DNA of 30,521 bases from Oscillospiraceae bacterium (lineage in GTDB: Bacteria > Bacillota > Clostridia > Oscillospirales > Oscillospiraceae): the NCBI GenBank assembly GCA_017378975.1, contig JAFNXT010000120.1, forward strand, positions 1 through 30,521, written 5' to 3'. Under the pieces are notes generated by a model. It was not told where the DNA came from. It saw only the letters and a program-made list of their open reading frames with translations, and made no database searches. Of this stretch, positions 5,474-27,114 are shown piece after piece. The position numbers were made by a program, and so were the translations under genes. Every line of letters begins with the position of its first letter. Within the stretch, counting starts at the first letter, position 1.

Positions 5474-5484
5474 GAGGTAATGAT

Positions 5485-6912: not shown

Positions 6913-7851
6913 ATGGATAAACACACGGTGGCAGTGATGTCGGATATCCATTCCAATCACCGTGCTTTCAAGGCCTGTTATGAAGACGCGCTCCGGCATG
7001 GAGCGGATAGGTTCGTTTTTCTTGGGGACTATGTATCGGATCTGGCACAGACGAGGGAGACCTTGGATCTGCTGTATGAGATCCGGGACCGGTATCCCAC
7101 CGTCTGTCTGCGGGGGAACCGGGAACGGTATATGCTGGAATGCGAACAGGGGAGCGTATCCTTCCGGCCCGGGTCCAAGTCCGGATCCTTGCTGTATACC
7201 TTTGAACAGCTCCGGCCGGAGGATCTGGCGTTTTTCGGGGCGCTGGGCTGTTTCGATACGATCCGGATCGGCGGTATGTCTGTGGAGGTCGCCCATGCGT
7301 TCAAAGAGGATGACAGGCTTTGTTTTGAAAAGGGGGACGCTCTGATCGGGCAGGTGTTCGATGGTATGGAGACCAGGCTCCTGTTGACGGGCCACAGCCA
7401 CCGGCAATATGTGGCTCGTCGGGAGGGCAAGACCATCGTCAACCCCGGCTCGGTGGGGGTGCCGCAGGATGGTAGCTGGCTGAGTGCTTATGCGCTCCTT
7501 TGGGCAGAAGATGGCCAGTTCACCGTCCGGCTCCGGCAGGTCCCTTATGATATCCGGGCGGTGATCCATGCCCAGTTCGCCTCCGGACTGGTGGAGCGCA
7601 GCCACTGCTGGGGCATCAGCTCTCTTTACGATATGATCTGCGGACGGGAGGGGACCCTCCGTCTGCTGGAGGCTGTGAGTCGGCATGGAGATGTCTATGA
7701 TGAGACGGTCTGGCGCAGAGAGGCGGAGCGGATGGGGATGGCCTTCACAGAAGAGGAGGTCATGGAAGTGGCCGGAAAGATCTGTTCCGGTACTACATAT
7801 GTGACGGAAAACGAAGCTGCATATATCACCGGCCATAGAGGCGCACGATGA
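6913..7851 (+). CDS. Metallophosphoesterase, YfcE/MJ0936-like
   Basis: 312 residues. The calcineurin-like motifs are in order: MSDIHSN (residue 9 onward), FLGDYVSD, LRGNRE, LTGHSHRQ and VNPGSVGVPQDG, supplying the Asp, His and Asn ligands of a two-metal site. Such enzymes are cytosolic phosphodiesterases or phosphatases with broad substrates. The C-terminal ~100 residues, beyond the usual 160-240 residue core, are helical and of unknown role. GGAGGG lies upstream of the start. It ends 56 bases before the histidine kinase gene; I see no terminator in between, so read-through into the signalling locus is possible. Confidence 0.88.
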   Translation: MDKHTVAVMSDIHSNHRAFKACYEDALRHGADRFVFLGDYVSDLAQTRETLDLLYEIRDRYPTVCLRGNRERYMLECEQGSVSFRPGSKSGSLLYTFEQLRPEDLAFFGALGCFDTIRIGGMSVEVAHAFKEDDRLCFEKGDALIGQVFDGMETRLLLTGHSHRQYVARREGKTIVNPGSVGVPQDGSWLSAYALLWAEDGQFTVRLRQVPYDIRAVIHAQFASGLVERSHCWGISSLYDMICGREGTLRLLEAVSRHGDVYDETVWRREAERMGMAFTEEEVMEVAGKICSGTTYVTENEAAYITGHRGAR

Positions 7852-7907
7852 CCGGTCACATCGGTCGATATGGAACGTGTAATGGATCTTCCAAAGGAGT
7901 TGAGATG

Positions 7908-9758
7908 ATGAGCGTAAAAGAAACGAAGTTTCGTCTTTTCAGTATGTCGACCCTGACGATCGCAGGTGTCCTGTTATTATTGCTTTCAGCCGCCATTTTG
8001 CTGTGGCACGGCAATGCGACCAGTAATCAGGCTGAAACGGCGCTTGTCGCGCAGTTGTATTTTGACGGTGAGTATCGTATTGGCGATGGTCCCTGGCAGA
8101 AGATCGTAAAGGGGGCCCACATCCCGGCGACGGAGGGAGATGTGACGCTGCGGGGCAACTTCCATATGCTGGCCCCGGATGGCGAGTATGTGGGTATTTA
8201 TAGTGGGGATATGCCTGTCGCGTTTTATACGGACCATATCAGCCTGACCGTGTACGAAAGCGAAAACGGACCTTATACGGTCGATATGGAAAATCCTTTG
8301 TTTGGGGATTCCGCATGTGGCGTGGGTTGGGTCGCGTATCTTTTAAGAAGCCAGAGCGAAGAGCCGGTGGAGATCCTGGTCCATAATCCTCATGTCTTCG
8401 GAAATGAGACCGCGATCGATGAGCTGCTGTCCAATATGGCTTTTTGGTCAGGTCTTGATTTTGAAAAAAGCGCACTGGACCGGGGAGGGACCCAAAGAGA
8501 TATTGGTCTTTTCTTCGTTATGGTCTCCCTTCTGTTGTTGGGAACCGCTTTGTTCTCGACCCTGATACATATCAAGAACAGTAAGATCATCTGGGTGCTC
8601 GGCAGCGTGATCTTGTTCGCCGGCGCGTACCTGTCTTACAGTGCGGACGGCGTTTCGTTCTGGAGCGAGTCGATCGTTTCCAATACGACGCTGTTAGGGT
8701 GCTCCATGATGTTCTATATGCTGTTCCTTTCGATGGCGCTCGTGTATCTGCTGAAGGGGACGAAGCCGATCGGCGTGGTGACGGTCAGCATTCTGGGGTC
8801 GGTCGACGCGATGCTCTTGCTCTTGCCTGTCTTCACGGATGTGCTCTTTTTCGATACATGGCCGTATTGGGCAGCCACGCAAGTACTGGCGAACGTCATC
8901 CTGCTGGGGTGCCTGGTAAAAGAGTTCTTTGCGGGAAAAGGGAAAGTGCGTTTGGTCTACATCTTTTCGCTCCTGCCGCTCCTCTCGTTTGGGGTCGATG
9001 TGGTCATGGTCGACCTTGGTGTCTGGAGCACCGGGGTCTCTTCCAAATACGTTTTTGTCGTTTTCTTCGTCGTTGCCATGGTGATGGTCCTCAAGATCAT
9101 ACCGAATAACATCAATGCCCTTGCCAAAGCAAAGGAACTGGAAACGGAAAAGATCGCTTTGAACGCCCAGTTGGCTGAAAGCCGTATCTCGACGATGATG
9201 AGCCAGATCCGACCGCATTTCATCTATAATACCCTTGGGAGCATCGAACAGCTTTGCGAATTGGATCCGCAAAAGGCCGGAGAGCTCGTCCACGATTTCG
9301 CCAAATACCTGCGTGGTAATTTTGGCGAATTGGATAATCCGAGACCGATCCTGATGTCGAAGGAAATGGAGCACGTCCACCATTATATCAATATCGAAAA
9401 CGTTCGTTTCCCGGATATGACGTTTTCCTTTGAGATGAGATCCGTAGATTTCTGCTTGCCGGCACTCACGGTCCAGCCGATCGTTGAGAACGCGATCAAA
9501 CACGGATTGATGAAGCTGCAAAAAGGCGGCTCCATTCGGGTGGTCTCCTATGAAACGGATACGGACTATTGCATTTCTGTGGAGGATGACGGCGTAGGCT
9601 TCGATACGAGCAAACTGCTTGATGAGAAGAAACACATCGGGATCCGCAATATTCGCGATCGTCTGAAGGTGATGGTCGGCGGAACGCTTGAGATCGAAAG
9701 CACACCGGGCGTCGGTACGAAAGTCCTGATCAAAATACCGAAGGAGGGCAGAAAATGA
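7908..9758 (+). CDS. Multi-membrane LytS/YehU-type sensor histidine kinase
   Basis: 616 residues from ATG 7908; AAAGGAG at 7893-7899 gives eight-base spacing, and ATG 7905 is an alternative. Order: one membrane helix (about 12-32), an extracellular beta-rich sensor domain (about 35-175), then roughly seven hydrophobic helices (about 195-400), a layout like 7TMR-DISM sensors. A helical linker leads to a HisKA_5-type core: SQIRPHFIYNTLGSIEQL with H437, PIVENAIKHG (N box), DDGVGFD and a terminal TPGVGTKVLIKIP. It senses an extracytoplasmic cue and phosphorylates the regulator that overlaps its stop codon (ATGA). Kinases of this type usually pair with LytTR regulators; here the partner carries a SARP-like domain. 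Confidence 0.9.
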   Translation: MSVKETKFRLFSMSTLTIAGVLLLLLSAAILLWHGNATSNQAETALVAQLYFDGEYRIGDGPWQKIVKGAHIPATEGDVTLRGNFHMLAPDGEYVGIYSGDMPVAFYTDHISLTVYESENGPYTVDMENPLFGDSACGVGWVAYLLRSQSEEPVEILVHNPHVFGNETAIDELLSNMAFWSGLDFEKSALDRGGTQRDIGLFFVMVSLLLLGTALFSTLIHIKNSKIIWVLGSVILFAGAYLSYSADGVSFWSESIVSNTTLLGCSMMFYMLFLSMALVYLLKGTKPIGVVTVSILGSVDAMLLLLPVFTDVLFFDTWPYWAATQVLANVILLGCLVKEFFAGKGKVRLVYIFSLLPLLSFGVDVVMVDLGVWSTGVSSKYVFVVFFVVAMVMVLKIIPNNINALAKAKELETEKIALNAQLAESRISTMMSQIRPHFIYNTLGSIEQLCELDPQKAGELVHDFAKYLRGNFGELDNPRPILMSKEMEHVHHYINIENVRFPDMTFSFEMRSVDFCLPALTVQPIVENAIKHGLMKLQKGGSIRVVSYETDTDYCISVEDDGVGFDTSKLLDEKKHIGIRNIRDRLKVMVGGTLEIESTPGVGTKVLIKIPKEGRK

Positions 9759-10534: not shown

Positions 10535-10547
10535 GTCTGCCGGTCAG

Positions 10548-10589
10548 AGGGAGCGTTGCGCGTATTGTGCAACGTTCCCTTTTTGTTTC
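10548..10589 (+). terminator. Terminator of the two-component operon
   Basis: 12-base stem (10548-10559 with 10569-10580, one G-U pair), 9-base loop, then TTTTTGTTT. Confidence 0.85.
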
Positions 10590-10603: not shown

Positions 10604-10639
10604 TTTGTAAGAAGTTTGTCATACCATCGATGTTATACT
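10604..10639 (+). promoter_or_regulatory. Activator-type promoter with TTTGT direct repeats (copy 1)
   Basis: TTTGT at 10604-10608 and again at 10615-10619 (11-base period), followed by 14 bases and the -10 TATACT at 10634-10639 with TGT upstream. At the 17-base spacing the -35 would be GAAGTT, a poor match, so an activator bound to the repeats is expected. The promoter at 19748-19783 has identical geometry and shares the first 9-mer TTTGTAAGA. Confidence 0.7.
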
Positions 10640-10686
10640 AAAGCAAAGGATAAGCTGGGCATTTTATCGTTCGGAGGTGGAAGCAA

Positions 10687-11667
10687 ATGGCGGACAGGAA
10701 CATACCTGATCTTTTCAGGCGATCGCTCTGTGATATGTGTATCGATGAGTCAGATATCGTCAGGACCACGGACGGATTTTTCATGGTCAACAGGTCGGTC
10801 GCGGACATACTGGCATCGAAGGGTATTTTTGATTTTCCGGGTACGGGTGGGGAACGGTTGGCGTGCAGTCATTTTTATGACGACTGGTTTTTGTATGCCG
10901 TCCCAAACGAAGAGGCGCATACATACGGTCTTTTGAAGCTCAGAGAGCAGGAGCATGATGCCAAAGCCGGTCCTCCCGCCGACGGTGATACGCCGGGCGT
11001 GACGATCTCCTTTATCTCCTTCGATCACCGGATCCTGCTCGATTGCCTTGCTGACCCCACCGATGAAAACAGAAGGAAGCTGGATGTTGAGATCGACCGT
11101 GTAGTGGTTCGAAAGGGGCAACGCCACCACAAAGCACTAAAAAATTACTTCCAAGATCCGCAGTCCCAGGGGGCCTACCTTGTGGCCGGTATATACACGA
11201 GGTATATCGCTTCGTTGGCGGAGGATGGGCGCTTAGCAGTGCCGGAGCATTATAAAGAGATCGTGCGGCAGAGCGTTTTGTGTAAAAACTCCGGCAAGCG
11301 GGCGAGGATCCCGCGCTTTATCGAAGAGTTGAACCGTGCGGCAGGGCGTGTGGTTTGTGACGATGAAAACATATACTTTGAAGACGGGGAAGGGCCAACG
11401 GAGCATGAAGCCGCGGCGATCCTTGCCACCCACACGGGCAACACATCGGTATTTTCTTTTGCGGCCGAGGTGGAGTATCACGCAAGGTTCCTGACGCCTT
11501 TGGCGAAACTCAAGATCCCGTTCATCGGCAGATCGGTCTACGATTCCGCGATCCGTGCGGATATGACGATCGGAGATACCGAGTTCGAAGGTCCGGCACC
11601 GTTCCATCGGTCGGATTCCAAGATCGTGAAACGGCAATACGCGGCACATCGGATGCTAAGGTTTTGA
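10687..11667 (+). CDS. Uncharacterised cytosolic protein
   Basis: 326 residues; the start follows CGGAGGTGG. I do not recognise the family. No signal peptide or membrane helix is visible. The N-terminal ~90 residues contain two CxxC-like or clustered cysteines (LCDMC, residues 14-18) and a segment that could be PAS-like (IVRTTDGFFMVNRSVADILA), which is speculative. The centre is helical and basic (VVVRKGQRHHKALKNYF), and the C-terminal third is mixed. It has its own promoter, with direct repeats matching those before the pilus operon, so it is probably switched on together with the pili. It could be a regulator or an effector of the locus; neither can be told from sequence. Confidence 0.75.
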   Translation: MADRNIPDLFRRSLCDMCIDESDIVRTTDGFFMVNRSVADILASKGIFDFPGTGGERLACSHFYDDWFLYAVPNEEAHTYGLLKLREQEHDAKAGPPADGDTPGVTISFISFDHRILLDCLADPTDENRRKLDVEIDRVVVRKGQRHHKALKNYFQDPQSQGAYLVAGIYTRYIASLAEDGRLAVPEHYKEIVRQSVLCKNSGKRARIPRFIEELNRAAGRVVCDDENIYFEDGEGPTEHEAAAILATHTGNTSVFSFAAEVEYHARFLTPLAKLKIPFIGRSVYDSAIRADMTIGDTEFEGPAPFHRSDSKIVKRQYAAHRMLRF

Positions 11668-11685
11668 TTTGCCGCTACGGCAAAT
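11667..11685. promoter_or_regulatory. Palindrome ATTTGCCG-CTA-CGGCAAAT overlapping the next promoter
   Basis: Perfect 8-base arms with a 3-base centre. It starts on the last base of the upstream gene's stop codon and covers the -35 and spacer of the promoter at 11669-11696. With no U-run directly after it, a repressor operator is more likely than a terminator, though weak termination cannot be excluded. Confidence 0.5.
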
Positions 11686-11696
11686 TAGAATATAAT
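11669..11696 (+). promoter_or_regulatory. Promoter of the Pr6Pr-like membrane protein gene
   Basis: Approximate -35 TTGCC within TTTGCC (11668-11673), 17-base spacer, -10 TATAAT (11691-11696). The ribosome site AAGGG at 11711-11715 follows. Confidence 0.6.
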
Positions 11697-11723
11697 AGAA
11701 AAACATTTGAAAGGGTGATCGTC

Positions 11724-12410
11724 ATGATCAAAAACAGAACAGCACAATTGATCTATCAAACCATCTACACGACGTTGGGGTTCGTGGGGCTCGTTGCGAG
11801 CCTTGGGATCTTCGATAACATCGATATGATCCGTTGGGATTTCTATGTCCACTTCACCAACATCAGCAATTTCCTGTGTATCGGTGTCATGGTCACCGCG
11901 CTGATCCAAACGGCAAAGAAAAAAGAAGACAGCTATGTTTCCGCTGTGCCGATGCTGAAGTTCATCGGGATGCTCGGGATCCTTTTGACCTTCCTCGTTT
12001 TCAATATCATGCTCGCCGGCGCGGAAGGCCGTGATCCTCAGGCCAACTGGCGTGTGGGCAGCCTGTGCTTCCATGTCGTCCTTCCCATCCTGTACATCGC
12101 GGACTGGTTCCTGTTCTATGAGCGCAAAAAGGCGAAGTGGTATTATCCCATCGCTTCCATCGCGTTCCCGCTGGCTTATGTGATCTTCCTGCTTATCCAG
12201 GCGATCATTTTGAAGTTTGACGCTTCTATCCTGATCCCCACGACGACCACGCCCCTCATCTACCCTTACTTCTTTGTAAACCTTGATACGCAGGGCGTTT
12301 CCGGTGTCCTTATGTGGATCGGTATCCTTTCTGCGGCTTTTGCTGCGGTGGGCTTCGCGTTCTTCGGACTGGACAGATTGGGGAAGAAAAGCGCAAGCTC
12401 CCGTGTGTGA
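11724..12410 (+). CDS. Pr6Pr/FAR-17a-like integral membrane protein
   Basis: 228 residues with six predicted helices: about 8-28, 38-60, 72-95, 108-128, 140-165 and 190-215. The stretches FYVHFTNISNFLCIGVM, CFHVVLPILYIADWFLF and PLIYPYFFVNLDTQGVSG match the Pr6Pr family, related to FAR-17a/AIG1 proteins, whose eukaryotic members hydrolyse branched fatty-acid esters with a membrane Thr/His pair. A His in CFHVVLP could correspond to the catalytic one. The bacterial role is unknown. It has its own promoter with an overlapping palindrome and sits between an unknown gene and the phosphatase operon. Confidence 0.8.
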   Translation: MIKNRTAQLIYQTIYTTLGFVGLVASLGIFDNIDMIRWDFYVHFTNISNFLCIGVMVTALIQTAKKKEDSYVSAVPMLKFIGMLGILLTFLVFNIMLAGAEGRDPQANWRVGSLCFHVVLPILYIADWFLFYERKKAKWYYPIASIAFPLAYVIFLLIQAIILKFDASILIPTTTTPLIYPYFFVNLDTQGVSGVLMWIGILSAAFAAVGFAFFGLDRLGKKSASSRV

Positions 12411-12572
12411 TCGCGCGGCTGGCCCATAGGGGATACGAAGGATATCTTTCTGTACGTGTGACTTTGATGCAAAGACCGGTCGACGTTGGCCGGGCAGTCC
12501 GTCCCGGGCCGGACGGGAACGACATAACTGTGGAACAGCCGGAAAGGGGCTCTTAACGTAAGGGGGATCGGA

Positions 12573-13532
12573 ATGCCCAAAAAACATAGAAAATTTGCCG
12601 ATGACGGTTGGGCCGTCTGGGTCGACGGTGAGGACACGAGCACGATCCACATCAACGACTGGCTGGACCCCATGGGCAAAAGCTTCGTAGATATCGCTAT
12701 CCACATACGGGGCATCCAGTCGAGCAAGTCGTTGAATGTGTATGTGCCATTCACCGTTTCGGACGAAGAGCTCGAAGATGTGTCGCTGTCCTTTGGGGAT
12801 ACGAAGGTACTTCAGGCCATATTCAGTACCGCCTGTATCGTGGACTATAAGAAGAATCAGTACACATCAGAGATCGCCTATAACGGAAAGACTGTGGATA
12901 TCGTGCATATCAGCACCACGGGCTTCCAAGCGGAGCCCTTATCCAACGGGACCCTGATCCGTATCGATCTGCAGGCGATACGACCGTATTTTGACAATGA
13001 TGAGGCCTATTTCATTTGGCGTATGCCGCACAGATCTTTGGATGCGATATTCAGGCCCCGCGTCGATGTGAGGAATGTGATGGAACGTCTGCGTGACCTG
13101 ATCACGACACCGGTCGTGTCGGAGAAGTATGGCTATTCGATCCGCATCAACGAATCGAGGCTTTTGCCGGAGGAGATCACCCGCATCGGTATGTTCCACC
13201 GGCAAAGACTGAAGAAAGCGGTCATCACCATCTCAGTCCATGAAAACTACGAACTCAACGACAGCAATTGTTACCGGATCCGGCGATTGGAGGAAGCTCT
13301 GTACAGAGACTATCTGCCGAAAGAACTTCAGTGCGATGATGTCATCACCTATCAATGGGTCCAAAGCCGGGAAAATAATTTGCAGGGGCAGTTCAATTTC
13401 TACTACAGCATTACAAGGGATTCCATCAGCCGTGGCAGTATGCTCCTGTATATGATACTGCTGTTGGCTGTCGGTGTCGTTGGCGATTTCCTGTCAGAGG
13501 CCGTCCAGGCGCTGGTCAGGTCGATCATTTAA
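12573..13532 (+). CDS. Uncharacterised protein with C-terminal membrane anchor
   Basis: 319 residues; AGGGGGAT lies upstream of the start. I do not recognise the family. Residues 1-285 are soluble with a beta-rich pattern in two halves (about 1-170 and 185-285), and a single hydrophobic helix near residues 290-312 (SMLLYMILLLAVGVVGDFL) anchors the C-terminus, leaving the bulk in the cytosol. It precedes the 945-residue phosphatase by 12 bases, so it is almost certainly co-expressed with it and may work in the same signalling complex. The leader (12411-12572) has no promoter I can defend; read-through from 11669 is possible. Confidence 0.75.
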   Translation: MPKKHRKFADDGWAVWVDGEDTSTIHINDWLDPMGKSFVDIAIHIRGIQSSKSLNVYVPFTVSDEELEDVSLSFGDTKVLQAIFSTACIVDYKKNQYTSEIAYNGKTVDIVHISTTGFQAEPLSNGTLIRIDLQAIRPYFDNDEAYFIWRMPHRSLDAIFRPRVDVRNVMERLRDLITTPVVSEKYGYSIRINESRLLPEEITRIGMFHRQRLKKAVITISVHENYELNDSNCYRIRRLEEALYRDYLPKELQCDDVITYQWVQSRENNLQGQFNFYYSITRDSISRGSMLLYMILLLAVGVVGDFLSEAVQALVRSII

Positions 13533-13544
13533 GGAGGTGGACGG

Positions 13545-16382
13545 ATGAGACTGATCATCCCGGTCCTTTTGAACTGTGCCCTTGTTCTTGGGGTCTATTT
13601 GGCAGATAAGTATACTGCCGTGAAGAAATTGCCTTACATGGCAAAGCAGGTGGTCATCGGCATCCTCTTTGGCGGTGTTTCTGCCTTCGCGTCAAGTTAT
13701 GGCGTGGACTGGCTTGGCACCGTCGTCAATGTGCGTGATGCCGCGCCTTTGTCTGCCGGACTCATTTTCGGAGCGCCTGCAGGCATCATCTCCGGCCTGA
13801 TCGGCGGCATTTATCGCTGGGTCTCCGTATACTGGGGCGCTGGCACCTATACCCGGGTGGCTTGTACCATCGCGACCATCCTCGCGGGCGTTATGGCCGC
13901 AGGGTTGCGGAAGCTGATGTTTGATGACAAAAAGCCTACCTGGGGCTATGGCATCTGTATCGCCGTGGTGTGCGAAGTCATCCATATGATCCTGATATTC
14001 CTGACCAATATGGGTGACGCTTCCTATGCCTTTGAATTCGTCAAGGGCGCCACGGCTCCCATGATGCTGGGCAACTCTGTGGCGGTAGGTCTGGCGATCA
14101 TCCTGGTCTCTCTTTTCAGCCATGAGCGCTTTTTCAGAAAGAAGACCGCTGAGGGGATCGCCCATACGTTCCAACGAAGGCTTCTCAGTTGCATCGTGGT
14201 CGCCTATCTCGTCACCAGTACCTTTACCCTCATCCTCCAGAATGGGATGGCCCAGATCGAAACACAGGAATTGTTCACTGTGGCGATCAACGATGTCGAG
14301 GCATCGGTAAGAGAGCGATCAAACTACCAGCTTCTTCAGATCGCGGAACAGGTCAAACGGGAATACGAGAATGACCCGACGGTCTCACTGTCCGGTCTTA
14401 CGGAAAAATACGACATCAAGGAGATCAATGTCGTTGCCTCTGATGGCATGATCACAAATTCCACGGAAGCAGATGTCATCAACAGCTATGATATGAACAG
14501 CAAGGCGCAATCCAAGGAATTCGTGGATAAGCTGAAGGTCCAGGATTCTTTCGTACAGGATTATTCACCCAGAGGCAAGGATGGGTCTGTATGGAGAAAA
14601 TATGCGGCTGTGAATCTCACGGAGGGCGGCTTCATCCAGGTGGGTCACGATCCCGGGCAATTCCATAAGATGCTCAACGGGTTCGTCATCGATGTCACCA
14701 AGAACCGCCATGTCGGTACCAACGGCTTTGTCGTGGTCCTTGATGAAAAGCTCTGCATGGTCATAGACGGCGGATGGGCAGGGGAGCATATCTCTTCCAT
14801 CGGCATCATCCCGCCGGAGGAGATGGCCCAGAGGAAAACCGCCACCACGCTCTACAGGGCGGATATCGTGGACGGTGTGGATGGGCGGAGCGCAGAATAT
14901 ATGTATGTGTTCAAGTTCGTCGAGGGCTACTGTCTGATCGCGGCCATGCCGCAGGCCGAGGCGATGTTCATGCGTGACGCTTCGATGCTGACAAGCATTT
15001 TTATGCAGGTGCTGATCTTCGCCACCCTCTTCGTCTTCATCTACATACTGATCAAGCGCGTGATCATCGATAATATGAGGAAAATCAATGCCACCCTTGG
15101 CCGGATCACGGATGGTGACCTGAGCGTGACGGTCGATGTGCGCTCCAACGAGGAGTTCGCTTCCCTGTCGGATGATATCAATTCCACAGTCACCACATTG
15201 AAGCGGTATATCGCTGAAGCGGCGGCCCGTATCGATAAAGAACTGGAATATGCCAAGCAGATCCAGCTTTCCGCGCTTCCGACCAACTTCCCGGATGATG
15301 ATGATCACAGCATCTATGCCCAGATGATCGCAGCGAAAGAGGTCGGTGGAGATTTCTACGATTTCTATAAGCTGAGCGATACGACGGTGGCGTTTCTGGC
15401 GGCCGACGTATCCGGCAAGGGGATCCCCGCGGCGATGTTCATGATGACTGCCAAAACGATCATCAAGGCTCTGGCGGAAAGCGGGATGGCTGTAAACGAT
15501 ATCTTTACAGCGGCGAATGAAAAGCTTTGTGAGAACAACGAATCGGGCATGTTCGTAACGGCCTGGATGGGCATCCTGGATCTGACTACCGGCCATGTGC
15601 GGTTTGCCAATGCAGGTCACAATCCGCCCATGCTCAAACGCGCGGACGGTTCGTTCGAATACCTGAGGACCCGGGCTGGATTCGTGCTTGGAGGGATGGA
15701 GGGGGTCCGTTACCGTGTCGGAGAGCTGACGCTCAGCCCCGGTGACAGGCTGTTCCTCTATACCGACGGTGTGCCTGAAGCGACAAGCGTCAGGAACGAG
15801 CTTTACGGTGAAGAACGGCTCCTGGCCTTCATGGACCGAAACGCGTCCGTGGAAGCGACGAAGCTTTTGCCGGCCCTGAAGGCGGATATCGATAACTTCG
15901 TGGGCGAAGCGCCGCAGTTTGATGATATCACCATGCTGATGCTTGATTATAGACCGAAAAAAGGAGGTGAGCATATGACGGATAAAACATTCCCGGCGAC
16001 CACCGGGGCGCTGTCTGACGTACTGAGCTTCGTAGAGGGAACGCTCGAAGGCTTTGGCTGTCCCATGAAGATCCAAACGGCGATCTGTGTCGCCATCGAG
16101 GAAGTGTTCGTCAATGTTGCTCGCTATGCCTACCCGGAAGGCGTTGGTGATATGACGCTTCGCATCGGCTTCGATGAGGAGCGCCGCACCATCACGTTCC
16201 GCATGACGGATAAAGGTATCCCCTTCGATCCGCTGAAGAAACCGGATCCGGATATCACGCTCTCGGCTGAAGAGCGAGAGGTCGGCGGACTTGGTATCTT
16301 TATCGCCAAGAAGACCATGGATTCACTGGACTACGCTTTTGAAAACGGCGAGAACATCCTGACTATGATCAAAAAAATTTAA
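13545..16382 (+). CDS. 5TM-Cache-HAMP-PP2C phosphatase fused to RsbW-like kinase
   Basis: 945 residues; AAGGAGG fixes the start. Order: LytS-type 5TM region (1-200, with GAPAGIISGLIGGIYR), a further helix (213-235), an extracellular Cache-like domain (about 240-480), a helix (484-505), HAMP (505-560), an RsbU/SpoIIE PP2C phosphatase (565-800; VGGDFYDF, AADVSGKGIPAAMF, FLYTDGVPEA, FDDITML) and a GHKL kinase (811-945; AIEEVFVNVARYAYPEG, DKGIPFD, GGLGIFI). It carries both opposing activities of a partner switch: dephosphorylating and phosphorylating a STAS antagonist, here probably the next gene. A full ribosome site and ATG lie at 15961-15977, exactly at the domain junction, so the kinase may also be made alone. 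Confidence 0.9.
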   Translation: MRLIIPVLLNCALVLGVYLADKYTAVKKLPYMAKQVVIGILFGGVSAFASSYGVDWLGTVVNVRDAAPLSAGLIFGAPAGIISGLIGGIYRWVSVYWGAGTYTRVACTIATILAGVMAAGLRKLMFDDKKPTWGYGICIAVVCEVIHMILIFLTNMGDASYAFEFVKGATAPMMLGNSVAVGLAIILVSLFSHERFFRKKTAEGIAHTFQRRLLSCIVVAYLVTSTFTLILQNGMAQIETQELFTVAINDVEASVRERSNYQLLQIAEQVKREYENDPTVSLSGLTEKYDIKEINVVASDGMITNSTEADVINSYDMNSKAQSKEFVDKLKVQDSFVQDYSPRGKDGSVWRKYAAVNLTEGGFIQVGHDPGQFHKMLNGFVIDVTKNRHVGTNGFVVVLDEKLCMVIDGGWAGEHISSIGIIPPEEMAQRKTATTLYRADIVDGVDGRSAEYMYVFKFVEGYCLIAAMPQAEAMFMRDASMLTSIFMQVLIFATLFVFIYILIKRVIIDNMRKINATLGRITDGDLSVTVDVRSNEEFASLSDDINSTVTTLKRYIAEAAARIDKELEYAKQIQLSALPTNFPDDDDHSIYAQMIAAKEVGGDFYDFYKLSDTTVAFLAADVSGKGIPAAMFMMTAKTIIKALAESGMAVNDIFTAANEKLCENNESGMFVTAWMGILDLTTGHVRFANAGHNPPMLKRADGSFEYLRTRAGFVLGGMEGVRYRVGELTLSPGDRLFLYTDGVPEATSVRNELYGEERLLAFMDRNASVEATKLLPALKADIDNFVGEAPQFDDITMLMLDYRPKKGGEHMTDKTFPATTGALSDVLSFVEGTLEGFGCPMKIQTAICVAIEEVFVNVARYAYPEGVGDMTLRIGFDEERRTITFRMTDKGIPFDPLKKPDPDITLSAEEREVGGLGIFIAKKTMDSLDYAFENGENILTMIKKI
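15961..16382 (+). CDS. Possible internal gene: free RsbW-like kinase from an in-frame start
   Basis: AAGGAGGTGA at 15961-15970 is followed five bases later by ATG 15975, in frame with the 945-residue protein (its residue 811). Translation from here yields a 135-residue protein, the usual length of RsbW/SpoIIAB anti-sigma kinases, with the N, G1 and G2 boxes complete. The simplest reading is an ancestral separate kinase gene whose upstream stop was lost while its ribosome site stayed; both products could be made today. The signal is as strong as that of any start in the cluster. Confidence 0.55.
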
Positions 16383-16397
16383 AGGAGATCTGCGGAC

Positions 16398-16694
16398 ATG
16401 ACGATCGAGATCAAGAAAAAACAGGAACAGACCATCATCGAGATCGTGGGTAGGCTCGATACGATCACAGCTCCCGCGCTTGATAAGACCATCAATACGG
16501 ATATCGCGGACACCAAGCATCTTGTTCTTGATGTGAAGGGCATGGAGTACATCTCCAGCGCGGGACTTCGTGTCCTGCTTGCGACACAGAAGAAGATGCA
16601 GAAGGTCGGCTCCATGAAGGTGATCAACGTTTGCGAAGAGGTCATGGAAGTCTTTGAGATGACCGGCTTTGCCGATATTTTGGTGATCGAATAA
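16398..16694 (+). CDS. STAS-domain anti-sigma factor antagonist, RsbV/SpoIIAA-like
   Basis: 98 residues, a complete single STAS domain. The motif MEYISSAGLRVLLATQ holds S53 and S54; S54 aligns with the serine phosphorylated by RsbW-type kinases and dephosphorylated by RsbU/SpoIIE phosphatases. Its kinase and phosphatase are probably both domains of the preceding protein, 15 bases upstream. In known systems the dephosphorylated form binds the kinase and frees a sigma factor; no sigma gene is in the window, so the released partner is unknown. AAAGGAG precedes the start, and the stop overlaps the next ATG by one base. Confidence 0.92.
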   Translation: MTIEIKKKQEQTIIEIVGRLDTITAPALDKTINTDIADTKHLVLDVKGMEYISSAGLRVLLATQKKMQKVGSMKVINVCEEVMEVFEMTGFADILVIE

Positions 16695-17260
16695 TGGAAC
16701 TTGTAAGTGAAGCGATCGTATTTGCGGTGAAAGCGCACGACGGGATGCGTCGCAAAAAAAGCGAGTCCCCGTACATCCTGCATCCAATGGAAGCGGCCGT
16801 CATCGTTGGCACGATGACGGATGATCAGGACTTGATCGCCGCGGCCGCTCTGCACGATGTGGTGGAGGACGCGGGCATCACGATCGAAGAGATCGAAGAG
16901 AGATTTGGAAAGCGTGTACGTCAGCTCGTCGCGTCTGAGACCGAAGATAAGCGGGCCGATCTGCCGCCTGCGACGACCTGGCGTATCCGTAAGGAGGAAT
17001 CTCTCAGGGTGCTGGAAAACACAGACGATGTCGCCGTGCTGATGGTATGGCTGGGCGATAAGCTCGCCAATATGCGCTCGATCTACCGTGATATCAAGGT
17101 GGAGGGCGTACAGATGTGGCAACGATTCAATCAAAAGGATGTTGCCGAGCAGGCCTGGTACTACCGGTCGATCCTCAGATCGACCGCGCGCCTGTCTGAC
17201 ACTTCGGCCTGGCTTGAATACAAAACGCTTACAGAGCTCGTGTTTGGAAAAGGAGAATGA
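16694..17260 (+). CDS. SpoT/Mesh1-like HD-domain hydrolase
   Basis: 188 residues. The HD motifs of the alarmone hydrolase family are present: AHDGMRRKKSESPYILHP (first His and HP), ALHDVVEDAG (HD and ED) and LGDKLANMRS, matching the LADRLHNMR block that carries the last metal Asp. No synthetase domain is attached, as in Mesh1 and small alarmone hydrolases. The expected reaction is removal of the 3'-pyrophosphate from (p)ppGpp or a related nucleotide, using Mn2+ in the cytosol. The start overlaps the STAS stop by one base (TAATG), so the two are translationally coupled, which suggests that partner switching and nucleotide hydrolysis are linked. Direct regulation by STAS is a hypothesis. Confidence 0.85.
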   Translation: MELVSEAIVFAVKAHDGMRRKKSESPYILHPMEAAVIVGTMTDDQDLIAAAALHDVVEDAGITIEEIEERFGKRVRQLVASETEDKRADLPPATTWRIRKEESLRVLENTDDVAVLMVWLGDKLANMRSIYRDIKVEGVQMWQRFNQKDVAEQAWYYRSILRSTARLSDTSAWLEYKTLTELVFGKGE

Positions 17261-17264
17261 ACCA

Positions 17265-18437
17265 ATGGATATCACCTATCGTGTAGACAAAGACATTTTG
17301 TATATCGCTGTGGAAGGAAGGATCGATGCTTCCAACGCGGCCGAAGCGGAAGGGAAGATCTTCGGCATCAAAAACGATAACCCCGGAAAGCATACCGTGG
17401 TGGATGCCGATAAGCTCGAATACATTTCTTCTGCGGGCTTGCGTGTGATCTTGCGGCTCAGAAAGGAAGAACCCAGGCTTGCGATCATCAATGTGGCATC
17501 GGATGTTTACGAGGTTTTGGACATGACCGGCTTTACCGATATGATCACGGTCGAAAAGGCATATCAGAGGATGAGCGTCGAGGGCTGTGAGTTTATCGCC
17601 AAGGGCGCCAACGGTGCTGTTTATCGCTACGATGATGAGACTATCCTCAAGACCTATTTTGCGAAGGATGCCCTGCCCGAGATCAAGCAGGAGCGTGAAA
17701 ACGCAAGACGCGCGTTCGTTCTTGGCATCAATACCGCGATCCCTTACGGTATCGTCCGTGTGGGCGATGGCTACGGTACGGTGACTGAGCTTTTGAATGC
17801 CACCAGTGTCACCAAGCTGATCCGTAGAGATCCGGAGGATATGTCCCTTGCAGCCAAGTATTACATCGATATGCTCAAGAGCATCCATGCTATCAAGGTG
17901 GAAGACGGGGAAGTCCCCGATATGAAGGAAACGGCCCTTAGCTGGGCTCGGTTCGTTTCCGCCCACATCCCCGAAGAGCAGGGCAAAAAGCTTCGTGCTT
18001 TGATCGAAGCCGTCCCCAAGCAGAACACGCTGATGCACGGTGACTATCACACCAATAACATCATGGTACAAAACGGAGAGCCTTTGCTCATCGATATGGA
18101 TACTCTGTGTATGGGACATCCTGTATTTGAGCTTGGTTCCATGTTCAATGCCTTCGTAGGATATTCTGAGCTTGATCATCAGAATATGATGGATTTCTTT
18201 GGCTACAGCTTTGAGACCGCCGGAAGGTTCTGGAAGACCGCCCTCAAGATGTATCTGGGTACGGAGGATGAGGCTGTGTGCCAAAGCGTGGCAGAAAAAG
18301 CCATGGTCATCGGCTACACCCGTATGCTTCGCCGCGCGATCCGCCGCCCTGAAGAGGCAGATAGTCCCGCCAAGATCGCAAGATGCAAGGAAATGCTTGC
18401 GGTGTTGCTTGATAAGGTAGATACATTGGTTTTTTGA
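17265..18437 (+). CDS. STAS domain fused to APH-like kinase
   Basis: 390 residues from ATG 17265, with AAAAGGAG about ten bases upstream. Residues 1-100 are a second STAS domain (LEYISSAGLRVILRL, with S56 in the phosphoacceptor place). Residues 105-390 are an aminoglycoside phosphotransferase-type kinase: a Gly-rich loop AKGANGAVYRY, lysine in ILKTY, catalytic LMHGDYHTNNIMV and metal-binding LLIDMDTLCMGHPVFELG. All kinase motifs look intact. APH-like kinases phosphorylate small molecules or, at times, proteins; resistance is unlikely in this setting. The STAS part may put the kinase under the control of the upstream kinase/phosphatase protein. It lies four bases after the HD gene, in one operon. 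Confidence 0.88.
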   Translation: MDITYRVDKDILYIAVEGRIDASNAAEAEGKIFGIKNDNPGKHTVVDADKLEYISSAGLRVILRLRKEEPRLAIINVASDVYEVLDMTGFTDMITVEKAYQRMSVEGCEFIAKGANGAVYRYDDETILKTYFAKDALPEIKQERENARRAFVLGINTAIPYGIVRVGDGYGTVTELLNATSVTKLIRRDPEDMSLAAKYYIDMLKSIHAIKVEDGEVPDMKETALSWARFVSAHIPEEQGKKLRALIEAVPKQNTLMHGDYHTNNIMVQNGEPLLIDMDTLCMGHPVFELGSMFNAFVGYSELDHQNMMDFFGYSFETAGRFWKTALKMYLGTEDEAVCQSVAEKAMVIGYTRMLRRAIRRPEEADSPAKIARCKEMLAVLLDKVDTLVF

Positions 18438-18460
18438 CCTTGCAGGAAGGGGATAAGATC

Positions 18461-19357
18461 ATGAGATCCAAACGATCGCGTTTGCCTGCCATCATCCTTG
18501 TCGTGGCGATCTTGGTAACAGCGGCCTATTCCGTCATCAGCAGTATAGCAAAAAAGCCGACCGTTACCGAAGGTAGATTCCCTTTTTCGATCACATACGA
18601 ATGCAACGGCGAAACTGTGACGATCAAAGATGTCTACACGGCCCGTTATATTGGGAACGATGGATATGCCGATACCAAGACCCGCATGTATGTCGGTCAG
18701 GCCGGGGATATGGAAGACGGGGGCGTGGTCTACACACTCCAAAAGGATGCCGATACCCGTATTGAATTATGGACGAATTTCTATGCGGACTATTTGATGG
18801 GCGATCCCCAGTACGATTATTTTGATGAGGAGGCTTTTAGGCCGGAGATCTATTATTATGATGCAGAGGAACAGGAGTATTCCGATGAAGAGACCTTGTC
18901 GGCACACGGTGTAAAGCTTGTAAGCTTTGAATATCCGACACCGATCGAAAATTCATTCGTTTTCTCGCACATATCCTATTTCAGCAGTGCGATCGTATTG
19001 CCGACGCTGCTCATTGCGCTGCTGGCCCTTGCCGCGGTCATTGTTTTCGTGAAAAGAGAAGAAGGATCACAGCGTAAAGCGGTGGATATCGTTTCCGTTA
19101 TTTTGAATGTTGCGATCTGCTTCGTGTTCATCCCATTCGTTTCGGTGGCGGCGATGCTGGCAGATCTCAATGGTGGCGGTCCGGAGTTTTACTTGCAGGT
19201 CCTGTATTTCCTTCCCTGGTTTTCGGTGATGTGCATCGCCGCGTCCGTTGCCCTGCGCCGTAAAGGTCATGGCGTGGGATCGCTGATCGCTCAGCTCGCG
19301 GGGCCTGCTGTGTTCGTCGTATTTCTGATCGTCTGCGGTGTGTGCGAAGAACTCTGA
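18461..19357 (+). CDS. Membrane protein of unknown function, last gene of the partner-switch operon
   Basis: 298 residues; the start is chosen from GGAAGGGG eight bases upstream. One N-terminal helix (about 7-28) is followed by an extracellular, acidic, Tyr-rich domain (about 30-170) and then four closely spaced helices (about 180-205, 220-245, 252-270 and 275-295). No family is recognised. The gene begins 23 bases after the STAS-kinase stop. A decayed partial copy of its 3' part lies immediately downstream (19540-19690), so a paralogue once followed it. Confidence 0.75.
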   Translation: MRSKRSRLPAIILVVAILVTAAYSVISSIAKKPTVTEGRFPFSITYECNGETVTIKDVYTARYIGNDGYADTKTRMYVGQAGDMEDGGVVYTLQKDADTRIELWTNFYADYLMGDPQYDYFDEEAFRPEIYYYDAEEQEYSDEETLSAHGVKLVSFEYPTPIENSFVFSHISYFSSAIVLPTLLIALLALAAVIVFVKREEGSQRKAVDIVSVILNVAICFVFIPFVSVAAMLADLNGGGPEFYLQVLYFLPWFSVMCIAASVALRRKGHGVGSLIAQLAGPAVFVVFLIVCGVCEEL

Positions 19358-19539
19358 AGAAAGATCTGTGGGAGGGGAGACGAGATCGTCACAAAGATCC
19401 CGGTCATGGGATATGAGGGAGGAGCTCGTGGTTGGTGGACGGTCCATATGGTAAATACTGCTTGTTTTTCTGCTTGACATCTGTTGCTATAAAATCGTCC
19501 ATTCGTCACGATCATCATCGTGAGATCAGAAAAGGCACA

Positions 19540-19732
19540 TAGTACAGACCGGGGGCTGATCGTCCTGCTTGTCACGGTCGCAGTGATACTGGATCATCAG
19601 GTCCTGTATCCCGTCCCCTCGTTTCCGGTCATGTGGGTCGCGGCGTTTGTTGCTCCGCATGATCGGAGGCGTGGGATGGTGGGGACGGTTTTGACCCGGT
19701 CCCGCGGAAAAGTAAGGATCTGTGAAAGATGA
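19540..19732 (+). pseudogene. Remnant of a second copy of the 18461 membrane protein gene
   Basis: Positions 19598-19659 match 19196-19257 of the preceding gene without gaps, 47 of 62 bases identical by hand count, starting with 12 identical bases (CAGGTCCTGTAT). The encoded stretch QVLYPVPSFPVMWVAAFVA parallels QVLYFLPWFSVMCIAASVA in the same order. Upstream, LLVTVAVILD resembles FVSVAAMLAD with a loss in between. Most of the gene is missing and no ribosome site is seen. The full gap 19358-19825 holds this remnant, the promoter at 19748-19783 and nothing else I can support. Confidence 0.65.
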
Positions 19733-19747
19733 TCGGAGATCCCCCGG

Positions 19748-19783
19748 TTTGTAAGAGGTTTGTAAGAACGTATGTGATATGAT
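19748..19783 (+). promoter_or_regulatory. Activator-type promoter with TTTGT direct repeats (copy 2), pilus operon
   Basis: TTTGTAAGA at 19748-19756 and repeated exactly at 19759-19767 (11-base period); 14 bases separate the TTTGT core of the second copy from the extended -10 TGA-TATGAT (19775-19783). The -35 at 17-base spacing would be GAGGTT, a poor match. The geometry is base-for-base the same as at 10604-10639. It is the only promoter I see for the genes 19826-28661. Confidence 0.75.
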
Positions 19784-19825: not shown

Positions 19826-20158
19826 ATGACGGATAAGGAATTTAAACGACTGAGCAGATCACAGCTGATCGATATCATCTACCAGTACCAGTTGCAGGTC
19901 GATAAACTGACTGAACAAAATCAGGAATTGGAACGGGGATTGGAAGATAAACGGCTTCGTTTGAGCAATGTCGGTAATATCGCCGAGGCGGCCCTTGAGA
20001 TCAACGATTGCTTCCGCAGCGCGCAGAGTGCCGCGGAGCAATATCTGGAAGAGATCAAAGCGATCCGTGAAGAGACCGAAGCGGAGCGACAGAGGATCCT
20101 CGCACAGGCACGGGCGGAAGCGGCCGAGATCGTTTCCAAGGCGAAAGACCATAGGTAG
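19826..20158 (+). CDS. Small coiled-coil protein, DivIVA-like, first gene of the pilus operon
   Basis: 110 residues, cytosolic, almost wholly helical. The N-terminal KEFKRLSRSQLIDIIYQYQLQ is a compact conserved-looking head. Residues 22-50 and 70-108 are heptad-patterned coiled coils, ending in an Ala/Glu-rich AEAERQRILAQARAEAAEIV segment like the tails of DivIVA/GpsB-type or ATP synthase b-type proteins. No cysteines, no membrane helix. It could position pilus assembly at the membrane, which is inference from shape and neighbours. It lies directly behind the direct-repeat promoter; the ribosome site (GAAGGG) is weak. Confidence 0.75.
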   Translation: MTDKEFKRLSRSQLIDIIYQYQLQVDKLTEQNQELERGLEDKRLRLSNVGNIAEAALEINDCFRSAQSAAEQYLEEIKAIREETEAERQRILAQARAEAAEIVSKAKDHR

Positions 20159-20181
20159 ATCGGGATCCTGCGATATAGGCG

Positions 20182-20778
20182 ATGATGAGTATGTTACACA
20201 GAAAGAAAAAGGAAGTTTCTCTTCCTACGAAAAGTCAGGTCGAAACGGAACGGAAGCGGTACCGTCGTCGAAAAGCCTATAACAAAGCGCTGGGCGGAAC
20301 GGTATATGTGTTGACGATCGTGGCGGCTGTTGCCGTGCTGATCGCAACGCTCATATTACCCGTTCTTCAGATCGAGGGGACCAGCATGGAGCCGACGTTA
20401 TCAAACGGAGATATCGTTCTGCTTGCCAAAACGCCCCGCTTCCAGCGAGGGGAACTCTGCGGCTTTACTTGGAACAACAAGCTTCTGATCAAACGGGTGA
20501 TCGGTATCCCCGGCGACTGGATCGAGATCGATACCGACGGCACCATCTATCTCAACGGTGAGAAGCTGGAAGAACCTTATGTGGAGCAGAAGGCTTTCGG
20601 AGAATGTGACTTGGAGTTTCCCTTACAAGTGCCTCCGGAGCAGTTTTTCGTGGTGGGGGATATGCGGGAAAGCTCTGTGGATTCACGCAACTCTCTGATC
20701 GGATGTATCCCCAAAGATCAGGTCGTTGGAAAGGTCTTCTTCAGGGTATGGCCCTTCAAACGTATCCATTTTTTTTAA
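20182..20778 (+). CDS. lepB: Signal peptidase I
   Basis: 198 residues. After a basic N-terminus, one membrane helix (about 35-57) leads to box B, IEGTSMEPTLSNGDIVLLAK, with catalytic S68. Box D, LLIKRVIGIPGDWIEID, holds the general base K104, and box E is VVGDMRESSVDSR. The enzyme cuts signal peptides outside the membrane. Dedicated type I peptidases within pilus operons, separate from the housekeeping copy, are known in Gram-positive bacteria and may process or help fold pilins. The ribosome site is weak; starts at 20182, 20185 and 20191 are all possible. Confidence 0.93.
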   Translation: MMSMLHRKKKEVSLPTKSQVETERKRYRRRKAYNKALGGTVYVLTIVAAVAVLIATLILPVLQIEGTSMEPTLSNGDIVLLAKTPRFQRGELCGFTWNNKLLIKRVIGIPGDWIEIDTDGTIYLNGEKLEEPYVEQKAFGECDLEFPLQVPPEQFFVVGDMRESSVDSRNSLIGCIPKDQVVGKVFFRVWPFKRIHFF

Positions 20779-20811
20779 CAAGAAGTGTCTTTATCAAGAG
20801 GACAAGCGTTT

Positions 20812-23800
20812 ATGAGTTTTATTGAACAGTATCTGTTACAATTGAAAACTGAAAAACGACGGTGGCAGTATGCTGTGATGATCCTGACAGCGCTGTCACT
20901 GGTCGTTGCGCTTGTCACTGCATGGAATCTGCGAATGACGGGGATCACGATCGTAAACGACGCGTCCTGCGGTCATAAGGAACATCGACATACCGAAGCG
21001 TGTCTGGCAGATGGCGTCCCGATCTGCGGACAGCAGGAGCATATCCATGATACAGGTTGCTATTCCGATCCCGATGCGGATACGGAAACCGCGTTGGATT
21101 GGCAGAATATGTTTGCTGACTATCCCTATACCGGTATCCTCCGTGAGGATCTGGTCGGTATCGCCAGGACGCAGGTGGGGTATACCGAGAGCAGGCTGAA
21201 TTTTGAAGCAAGCGACGATGGCGTACGACGCGGGTATACAAGGTATGGCGCATGGTATGGTGCTCCTTACAACGACTGGTCGGCGATGTTCGTGTCGTTC
21301 TGTCTTAGTTATGCAGGCGCGGATCCCGAAGGATACCCGTACAGCTCCGGCGCCTCGTCGATGGCAGAGCTCTGGAAAAAGCATGAAAGATTCGCTTCAG
21401 TGGGAGGATATGTCCCTGTCTGTGGCGATATCGTATTTTTGGACGATAATACGGTGGGCATCGTAGCCGAAGTCCACACCTCTACGATCTATGTGATCCG
21501 GGGCGACATGGATGACGCGGTCCGCGCGGATGTCATGCTCATGGAAGATCCATCCATCACCGGATGGGGCATCACGGGAGAGGGAGAGGCCGCCGTTCAG
21601 GCGCCCGTAGAAGAGGATGTTCTGGATATCTCCAACGGTCCAGCGGTCTATATCTTCGAAGGCGGTACGGCACCATCCACACCTTCGGCAAACAAACGCT
21701 TCCTGAGGACAGCGAGAACGGTCACGGAGCTTTTGCCCTATCTGGAAGCCAATGGCGGCAGTTACTTCTTTACATTGCTGGACCATAACAATATGGAACT
21801 TCCAAAGGACGCGCAGGGCAATTACATCGCGCAAGCCAATGTCGGCTATAAGCTTACGGTCAGCTTCACCAGCCCCAACGGCTTTTTGCCCGGGACCTAC
21901 CAGTATCAGATCCCCAATGGATTGATGGTGGAGGGCGGTGAAGGCGAATTCGCCTTGAAGGACGGCACGAACGTTGGTAGCTGGGTGGTGACCGATACCG
22001 GATCGATCACCATGGTGTTCAACGAAAATATGAACAGCCGCAGTGATATCACCATCAGCGCGACCATGGGGATCACCTTCCAGGAGCAGGATGACCTCAT
22101 CGATTTCGACGGCTTCATCACCGTCAAGGTAGAGCCCCCTGTCCAGCAGAAGGACCCAACGGTCTTGTCGAAATGGGGTTCTCCTGATGGGGACGCCGGA
22201 AAGATCAAATGGAAGGTGCGGATCGACGGACATGCGGATTCCCAGATCCCGGGAAACATACTCACTGACCGGACGGTCCTGAGCGATTGGAGCAGGCCCC
22301 ATAGTTATACCCCTTCGGATATCGCCGGAGGCTTGACGTTCGGTGTATCCGACCCGGAGGGCGGTTGGCACGCATGGCACGTTTCGGCGGATGATCCACA
22401 CCTCATATGGGACGAGACAGGGTGGTCTTATAAGATCCCCCAAACGGTCATCTGCGATTACTGCGGAGAACTGGAATTAGGCAACGAAGGCTGGAGCTAT
22501 CTTGTTGACTACACATCCACTCCGACACAGTTGAACACACCGGGTACGTTCGACTATGAGAACAAGGTCACGGTGGACGGTCAGACGGCGTGGGGCTGGA
22601 GCGATTTCACTCACGTCGGGATCGAAGCCGTGATCGGGAAGACCGGTTCTTTCGTATCCGATGCTTCCGGCGGTGGATTCCTCTGGGAGATCCAGGTGAC
22701 CATACCGGGCAGGCCGGATGGACAGCGGGCGGAATATTCCTGGTTCATCATGGATGAGATGCGACTGATGGATGAGAATGGCACGGTCGTTGGCTGTGTG
22801 CAGAACGATGCCCACCTGTCCACGGTCATGGCGACCTACAACGGAGCGACCATCCAGATCCCACGGATCCAGGATGCTACGGATGAGGACCTGTTCGCCT
22901 GGGACAATGCATGGACGGCAACAGAGAACGGTATCAGCTATAACCGGACCATAAATCTGCTCTGTCGCTGTCAATGTACGGAGGAGACCTGCCACTGGAC
23001 CGGGTGCGGAGACTACTGGTTCCAAAAAGATGACGGGGAATGGGCCGCCAACGGTTTTTGCCAGTGTTGGACAGAGACCCAGAACATGACCTTCACTTTC
23101 GTTTACAAGACGACGGATCTGTCTGTGATCGAAAAATACGGTCACCTTGGCTATCAGGTGAACAACCATGCCCAGCTCTACTATATGCCCGATGGCAACA
23201 ACTCGGTCCGCGTTTCCTATGATGACGCTACGGTCGGCATCCCTGAGTTGTTCGAAAAACAGCTGACCCATGATTTCAACGGCTATACCGCCCACTATAA
23301 GATCACAGTCAATGAAGCCAAAGCGGTTTTGACGAACGGTGCGCCGCTGATGATCCATGACGTTATGACGGATACGCTGGCGTATATAAGCGGTTCCCTC
23401 GTGATCACGGCAGAGAATGCCAATGGAAACATAACGACACTGCGGCAGGACACCGACTATACGGTCACATACGACGGTACAGGCGATCAGACGGATGGGT
23501 CCGGGAAAAAAGTGCACGTGTTGGATATCGTGATCTTGCGTCCCCAGCCGGTCACCTATATCCTCGATTATGATACGACTCTGATCCTGCCGGAGCAGTT
23601 GACGGGGGCTGTCAAGTACAGCAACTCTGCGACCATCACGCTTTGGGGAGAAGATATCACAGATGCCGGTGAAGAAAAAGTATACGCGGATATCAATATC
23701 GCCGCCAAGAGTTATGCCCTGGAATTGTTCAAGACCTGCGCGCTCACGAACAGACCGCTGTCGGGTGCGACCTTTGGTCTGTACAACGCGCAAGGAGGAC

Positions 23801-24204: not shown

Positions 24205-24292
24205 GCCTCCTGCAAACGGCGTGAAAACTGATCTACGCGCCTTGCCGATCACGCGTTGACTCCAAAAAACAAATTCAGAAAGGAAAATAGTT

Positions 24293-26119: not shown

Positions 26120-26135
26120 TCCGAGAGGGTCCCAA

Positions 26136-26164: not shown

Positions 26165-26196
26165 ATCTGGGGAACGATGACGGAAAGGAGATGCCT

Positions 26197-27063: not shown

Positions 27064-27114
27064 ACGGATATCGTCATGGATGAGAAAGACCATGATCTTC
27101 AAGGGGGGATATGG

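Follow-up and report, generated by a model that had tools for sequence, protein, structure and literature searches.

Which protein reads a direct repeat that is shared by two promoters 9 kb apart, one next to a two-component system and the other in front of a pilus operon? The question is raised by a 30,521-nt contig of an uncultured gut Oscillospiraceae bacterium (JAFNXT010000120.1, assembly GCA_017378975.1; this whole stretch is called the window below). The layout TTTGT-N6-TTTGT-N14-hexamer, claimed in an earlier note on this DNA, is exact at 10604 (site A) and 19748 (site B), and the 9-mer TTTGTAAGA, reported as shared, is present at both positions and again at 19759. A −35 element is indeed lacking, the best match to TTGACA at spacers of 15–19 being at most 2/6 at either site. 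Numbered from the first T, bases 1–11 and 12–22 form the two repeats, 23–30 the gap and 31–36 the hexamer (TATACT at 10634–10639 in A, TATGAT at 19778–19783 in B), and the 36-mers of the two sites are identical at 25/36 bases. TTTGT-N6-TTTGT is observed twice in the window, compared to 0.05 expected occurrences.

Overlooked so far were the TG of an extended −10 (10631–10632 and 19775–19776, element bases 28–29), a strong terminator that separates the regulator gene from site A, and a third copy of the box. Exact copies of TTTGTAAGANNTTTGT number three in the 2.02-Mb assembly, which is 75.7% complete: sites A and B, and positions 4137–4152 of contig C258, where 33/36 bases are identical to site A. 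The C258 box lies 5′ of genes for a membrane protein and a PrsW-family protein (PF13367, 2e-19) and of a 910-aa open frame, which runs past the contig end and is without a Pfam family.

Based on the comparisons described below, we consider it likely that boxes A, B and C258 are sites of the response regulator encoded at 9755–10534, activated by the kinase encoded at 7848–9758. On its signal, the kinase would phosphorylate the regulator, two protomers of which would bind side by side on the two 11-bp direct repeats, so that the repeats stand in for the −35 element. Since the box ends 8 bp before the extended −10, the bound regulator could hold region 4 of sigma and initiate transcription, which would switch on the unit behind site A (10687–19357), the pilus operon (19826–28077) and the operon for a seven-transmembrane (7TM) protein, PrsW and a secreted protein on C258.

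Position and geometry of the box in orthologous loci

The regulator scan of genome contigs yielded 167 loci, of which the best 80 were compared. A strict box, defined as TTTGTMA-N4-TTTGTMA-N12-TANNNT, is found on the regulator's strand in 40/80 loci and on the opposite strand in 0/80. Counts for the 1.2-kb stretch behind the regulator are based on 78 of the 80 loci, two with cut-off regulators having been dropped. Within this stretch the strict box is present in 13/14 loci with regulators of at least 70% identity, 14/27 at 60–70%, 9/23 at 52–60% and 0/14 below 52%. The conservation of the repeats in orthologous loci, which the earlier note had asked about, is thus seen in 36/64 loci at 52% identity or more, compared to 0.000 in shuffled sequences and no strict box on the opposite strand of the same stretches. 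A weight matrix raises the counts for these identity bins to 14, 19, 21 and 0, an increase that is circular because the matrix was trained on these boxes. The matrix places a box in 54 of these loci, at a median of 50 bp past the end of the regulator match, and over the 80 loci it finds 72 forward sites and one reverse site.

Both the 11-bp period and the 8-bp gap are rigid. On the regulator's strand, 48 TTTGTMA pairs show a period of 11, compared to none on the opposite strand, and each of the other periods from 7 to 23 is represented by at most one pair. TANNNT, which was not part of the repeat-pair search, lies exactly 8 bp past the box in 45/47 distinct cases, accompanied by TGn in 33, and columns 28–29, left unfixed in the search, are T at 0.90 and G at 0.82. 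A generic 11-bp repeat box with an extended −10, sought in the 14 loci below 52% identity and in seven close boxless loci, was not above background.

Comparison between genomes shows that box and regulator also co-occur. Among 394 genomes of the order, 19 have the strict box (28 matches) and 36 a regulator match at E ≤ 1e-40, both counts apparently from the same draw of genomes, and ten genomes have both (Fisher 6e-7). With a regulator above 300 bits, 6/6 order genomes (including that of the window) have a strict box, compared to 13/388 of the others. Within the genus (136 genomes), nine genomes have a regulator above 300 bits, six a strict box (8 matches, 2 control matches) and five both (Fisher 2e-6). 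In 40 regulator genomes chosen from 80, 35 have strict boxes (56 boxes in total, no control matches), a rate that is biased since the choice was largely box-driven; several of these boxes are on contigs other than that of the regulator. In Ruminococcus bromii ATCC 27255 (L056), a cultured relative whose regulator is 59% identical, boxes reach matrix level only, and the genome contains no strict one.

The regulator and its recognition helix

The protein encoded at 9755–10534 consists of a receiver and a winged helix and stands beside its kinase, as the earlier note had claimed of an OmpR-like regulator at this locus. Response_reg was found in all 31 members scanned, with D53 invariant in each, and Trans_reg_C in 19/31 at E ≤ 0.01, the window's member matching at E 0.0012, which is below the Pfam cut-off. 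BTAD was detected in 0/31 members at E ≤ 0.01, the 259 aa leaving only a short tail, and LytTR matched neither the window's regulator nor any of the 31 members. For an AlphaFold model (predicted local distance difference test 89, predicted template modelling score 0.56), Foldseek returned VanR, DrrB, PhoP and KdpE. Both domains are covered in matches to OmpR/PhoB regulators, among them VanR (1e-10) and DrrB (2e-10), with large root-mean-square deviations. The template modelling (TM) score by query length is ∼0.41 for VanR and DrrB, and this low value probably reflects a different arrangement of the domains in the modelled query; a VIA-align comparison tested mainly the receiver domain. For the DNA-binding part, a profile search returned weak, tied matches to EmbR (E 0.04), KdpE, DrrB and AfsR (E 0.07), all at E 0.04–0.07. 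By its predicted domain content, the regulator is of the OmpR/PhoB type and not a SARP.

Its recognition helix, residues 179–199, contains His187, and the residue at this position varies with base 8 of the box. Among 58 regulator–box pairs, 19 combine His187 with G, 38 combine Arg with C or T, and one has Tyr with A. Five of the boxes are manual assignments (those of L043 and L047, which stand in front of the kinase; L041; L032, with a 7-bp gap; and L031, the second of two), and 21 of the 79 aligned regulators, being without an assigned box, are outside this count. Agreement is poorer for the second repeat, where base 19 in the His187 pairs is T in 15, G in three and C in one. In a held-out case, genome G459, a CATAGG box is adjoined by a second regulator with a CAT-type helix. 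By mutual information, other regulator columns are on a par with 187, as expected because the clades differ throughout; 187 was therefore chosen partly for its position in the recognition helix.

The two repeats of a box need not be alike. An AAG repeat is joined to a CATACC-like second repeat in boxes A and C258 and in the majority of AAG-type boxes that follow the regulator; the window, G011 and G430 have pilus boxes made of two AAG repeats.

Proposed outputs of the box and competing explanations

Genes behind the box were counted for 106 distinct boxes above 20 bits, including those of the window's genome, with at least 1 kb of downstream sequence available for 100/106. Within 2.6 kb, 10/106 boxes are followed by the pilus signal peptidase, 26/106 by a Pr6Pr-family gene, the window gene commonest behind boxes, 5/106 by the kinase (L043, L044, L047, L049 and L202) and 4/106 by PrsW; homologues of the 110-aa protein of the pilus operon are within this distance of 9/106. 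Other boxes precede genes for Pr6Pr-family membrane proteins, PrsW operons, or genes for secreted proteins, STAS proteins, an exporter or the kinase, and behind many boxes nothing is homologous to the window's genes. The earlier note had proposed a dedicated sensor-to-pilus circuit. Part of this stands, namely a promoter operator that orientation, co-occurrence and helix variation appear to tie to the adjacent regulator and that is common to the pilus operon. The circuit is not dedicated, as only 10/106 boxes precede pilus genes. Each of the three kinds of target in the window's genome is found again elsewhere, and pili would therefore be one output among several.

Related genomes were searched for a box 5′ of pilus operons, as had been suggested, and nine loci besides the window have one no more than 2.6 kb in front of the gene for the pilus signal peptidase (L028, L058, L064, L065, L071, L076, L209, G011 and G430). 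In L064, L076 and L209 another gene lies between the box and the pilus genes, and the signal peptidases of L071 and L209 are only 54 and 52% identical. A close signal peptidase (86–100%) is encoded in five genomes of the genus (G000, G516, G511, G011 and G530), of which four have the regulator (Fisher 4e-5) and four, in a different combination, a box before the operon; the remaining 25 of the 30 signal-peptidase loci examined, among 44 matches, have no box in the available stretch. Upstream of the G430 pilus operon (L269/L196, G430:C79) are five head-to-tail 11-bp repeats.

Some boxes precede genes of other kinds. A motif expression search identified receiver-only proteins of 122–137 aa behind boxes in L053 (10950), L055 (11293), L077 (2986), L207 (minus strand) and L264 (minus strand); all five have Glu at the position of the regulator's phospho-acceptor Asp, as if they were locked or unphosphorylatable partners. 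Further receiver-like hits lie behind other boxes, e.g., in L062, L075 and L076. Peptide-export operons stand behind boxes in L191 (G456:C144) and L198 (G459:C118), each with a C39-peptidase ABC transporter (by Pfam in L191, by eye in L198), and L191 also encodes small proteins with GG-type leaders, judged by eye. A phosphate regulon was considered because of the CAT variant of the box, which we take to resemble a pho box, and of 5′-nucleotidase-like proteins, seen by eye, that are encoded behind some boxes. It was rejected, since the three targets in the window's own genome do not fit; no phosphate genes were seen behind these three boxes.

Several observations weigh against the regulator as the reader of the box. 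In the order, 9/19 box genomes are without a regulator at E ≤ 1e-40, and three matches of the reversed-pattern control, set against the 28 box matches, indicate some background. A strict box is also missing from G303, where a contig end truncates the 65%-identical regulator, and from 4/9 close-regulator genomes of the genus, of which G033, G519 and G530 have a matrix-level box behind the regulator and G474 has none. Even by the weight matrix trained on these boxes, 10/64 loci with regulators of at least 52% identity have no box behind the regulator; L043 and L047 among them have one before the kinase, and L032 has a box with a 7-bp gap. The pilus promoter of L021, assigned to G511 by coordinates, keeps one half repeat at the correct gap. 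G011, which is 97% complete, has a pilus box, and its best regulator match is only E 3e-4. In this genome (G011:C4; L268, 3509–4048) an isolated fragment of the kinase's membrane domain (residues 241–405) lies beside PrsW, with the boxed pilus operon 4.3 kb on, which looks like a loss of the two-component genes. The agreement between helix and base is mainly one switch on the tree rather than many, as the AAG group forms a single clade (80/85). Finally, the boxes of G313 break the rule relating residue 187 to base 8, G557 pairs Tyr with G rather than A, and G430 has three CATAGG boxes where only a His-type regulator was found.

Some of these points would also fit a box that is read by another regulator, e.g., the LytTR protein encoded at 5039–5473 or another OmpR/PhoB-type protein, its position behind the regulator reflecting shared gene order only. 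The G011 pilus box without a close regulator, the CATAGG boxes of G430 without a matching one, the order genomes with a box alone and the presence of a LytTR gene with DUF3021 inside the window would agree with this. We consider it unlikely, given the co-occurrence over 394 genomes and box variants that track the regulator's helix, one held-out case included. The LytTR protein as such was set aside, as it is matched in 1/80 orthologous loci (30% identity, other strand), although many loci are too short upstream to show it.

It is similarly improbable that the regulator does bind the box and mainly represses, so that the surface genes would stay silent as long as the kinase receives its signal. 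Polymerase could also be obstructed by a box that covers the −35 region. On the other hand, promoters without a −35 would need help to fire, and SARP promoters, according to the available text of PMC10936776, are activated with this geometry. A dedicated alternative sigma factor, with the repeat as its upstream recognition part, could account for the missing sigma-70 −35 and for the rigid spacing to the −10. This seems very unlikely, since a tandem 11-bp repeat that reaches five copies in G430 has the look of an operator, the −10 belongs to the ordinary extended kind, and box variants track an OmpR/PhoB-type helix. A chance likeness of two AT-rich promoter stretches can be dismissed, even though the motif is short and exact 16-mers in G013 and G022 are background (no hexamer at the right gap, unrelated frames behind) and two more hits fall in G058, because of the excess over expectation in the window and the strict boxes behind orthologous regulators, which shuffled sequences do not give.

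Relation to known systems and gene content of the locus

Direct repeats with an 11-bp period occur in other Gram-positive promoters, such as the spa-box of SpaR and the WalR box, which differ from the present box in repeat sequence and targets. VirR- and ComE-type LytTR boxes are likewise direct repeats near promoters and are associated with LytS-type kinases; there the regulator has a LytTR domain and the repeat spacing is longer, whereas the regulator here has a winged helix.

The closest resemblance in layout is to SARP promoters. In the available text of PMC10936776, these have 11-bp direct repeats, the last of them 8 bp from the −10, that overlap a poor −35 and are bound by two protomers side by side; the afs box of AfsR in Streptomyces is a 22-bp box of two such repeats. 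Box A, box B and their relatives have this geometry, including the 8-bp distance and the poor or missing −35. Thus, the promoter layout is SARP-like, although the regulator is by its sequence of the OmpR/PhoB type. The winged helices are possibly related, the profile matches to EmbR and AfsR being weak. Unlike in SARPs, the receiver here precedes the winged helix, BTAD is lacking in the members scanned, a kinase is the partner, the host is a member of the Clostridia, and the targets are surface genes. The pho box also consists of two 11-bp direct repeats according to the part of PMC3978041 that was available. The regulator resembles OmpR/PhoB proteins in its receiver and winged helix and in its structural matches over both domains. 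In contrast to PhoB and the pho box, its partner is a His_kinase (PF06580) protein, and it would act on pili and membrane proteins. Promotion of pili by a regulator of the OmpR/PhoB type has a precedent in FpsR of Ligilactobacillus ruminis, whose kinase is described with HAMP and histidine kinase domains in the available text of PMC12688256, where the term "binding site" does not appear.

A literature search found no paper on this regulator or box, within a coverage that excludes most subscription journals. The assignment of a regulator to the promoters of pili and other surface genes is concrete and testable in gut Clostridia that are known mostly from metagenomes, and regulons can be predicted in them from the box. 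In addition, a geometry identical to that of SARP promoters combined with a BTAD-less, kinase-paired regulator bears on which SARP promoter features belong to the winged helix alone. More tentatively, and with slightly more doubt than conviction, we suggest that the locus may represent an undescribed family of regulons in gut Clostridia, made up of LytS-type kinases, BTAD-less SARP-like regulators and a 22-bp box with an 8-bp gap and an extended −10. The box letters (AAGA, AACRC, CATAG) would have co-diversified with the helix under a residue–base code (His187 with G, Arg with C/T at base 8), and the regulon would join pili, PrsW operons and a SpoIIE–STAS switch. If so, parallel insulated circuits could be sorted from sequence alone via this code.

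The features of the locus are listed in Table 1. Kinase and regulator genes overlap by 4 bases, and we take the kinase to be of the LytS type. The gene behind box A encodes a protein without a Pfam family, in agreement with the unknown protein of the earlier note. As the terminator and box A follow the regulator gene, promoter A probably drives a unit of ∼8.7 kb, up to 19357, insulated against the transcript that carries the regulator. With LPXTG/SpaA pilins and a sortase (SpaA, Gram_pos_anchor, Sortase and Cna_B matches), the genes behind box B form a sortase-dependent pilus operon.

Table 1. Coordinates of genes and promoter features in the window.
Feature	Position	Strand	Remarks
Sensor histidine kinase, 636 aa, membrane N-terminus (by eye)	7848..9758	+	His_kinase PF06580 4e-19, HATPase_c PF02518 1e-9
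Response regulator, 259 aa, receiver and OmpR/PhoB-type winged helix	9755..10534	+	Response_reg; Trans_reg_C below Pfam cut-off
Intrinsic terminator	10546..10582	+	17-pair stem, T-rich tail; fold z −4.7
Box A	10604..10625	+	Two 11-bp direct repeats TTTGTAAGAAG / TTTGTCATACC
Extended −10, promoter A	10631..10639	+	TGTTATACT; hexamer 8 bp past box end; column conservation
326-aa protein, first gene behind box A	10687..11667	+	No Pfam family
Pr6Pr-family membrane protein	11664..12410	+	NCBIfam NF038065 7e-14
319-aa protein, conserved in cluster	12573..13532	+	No Pfam family
945-aa 5TMR-LYT / HAMP / SpoIIE phosphatase / HATPase_c_2 protein	13545..16382	+	Pfam; HAMP below cut-off
STAS protein	16398..16694	+	
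HD_4 protein	16694..17260	+	
STAS and APH-family protein	17088..18437	+	True start probably ∼17274
307-aa protein, membrane segments by eye	18434..19357	+	
Box B	19748..19769	+	Two 11-bp direct repeats TTTGTAAGAGG / TTTGTAAGAAC, 5′ of pilus operon
Extended −10, promoter B	19775..19783	+	TGATATGAT
110-aa protein, coiled-coil-like (by eye), first pilus-operon gene	19826..20158	+	
Signal peptidase (S26) protein	20182..20778	+	PF10502 8e-35
Large SpaA-fold pilin-like protein	20785..24204	+	
SpaA-fold LPXTG pilin	24293..26119	+	
Sortase	26191..27063	+	PF04203 3e-23
Cna_B protein	27076..28077	+	

The 945-aa protein combines a SpoIIE phosphatase and an RsbW-like HATPase_c_2 domain, with STAS genes next to it, so that both arms of a partner switch are present in one chain. 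Upstream of the kinase gene, the LytTR gene and that of the DUF3021 membrane protein form a pair spanning 5039–5877, which is presumably a LytTR regulatory system.

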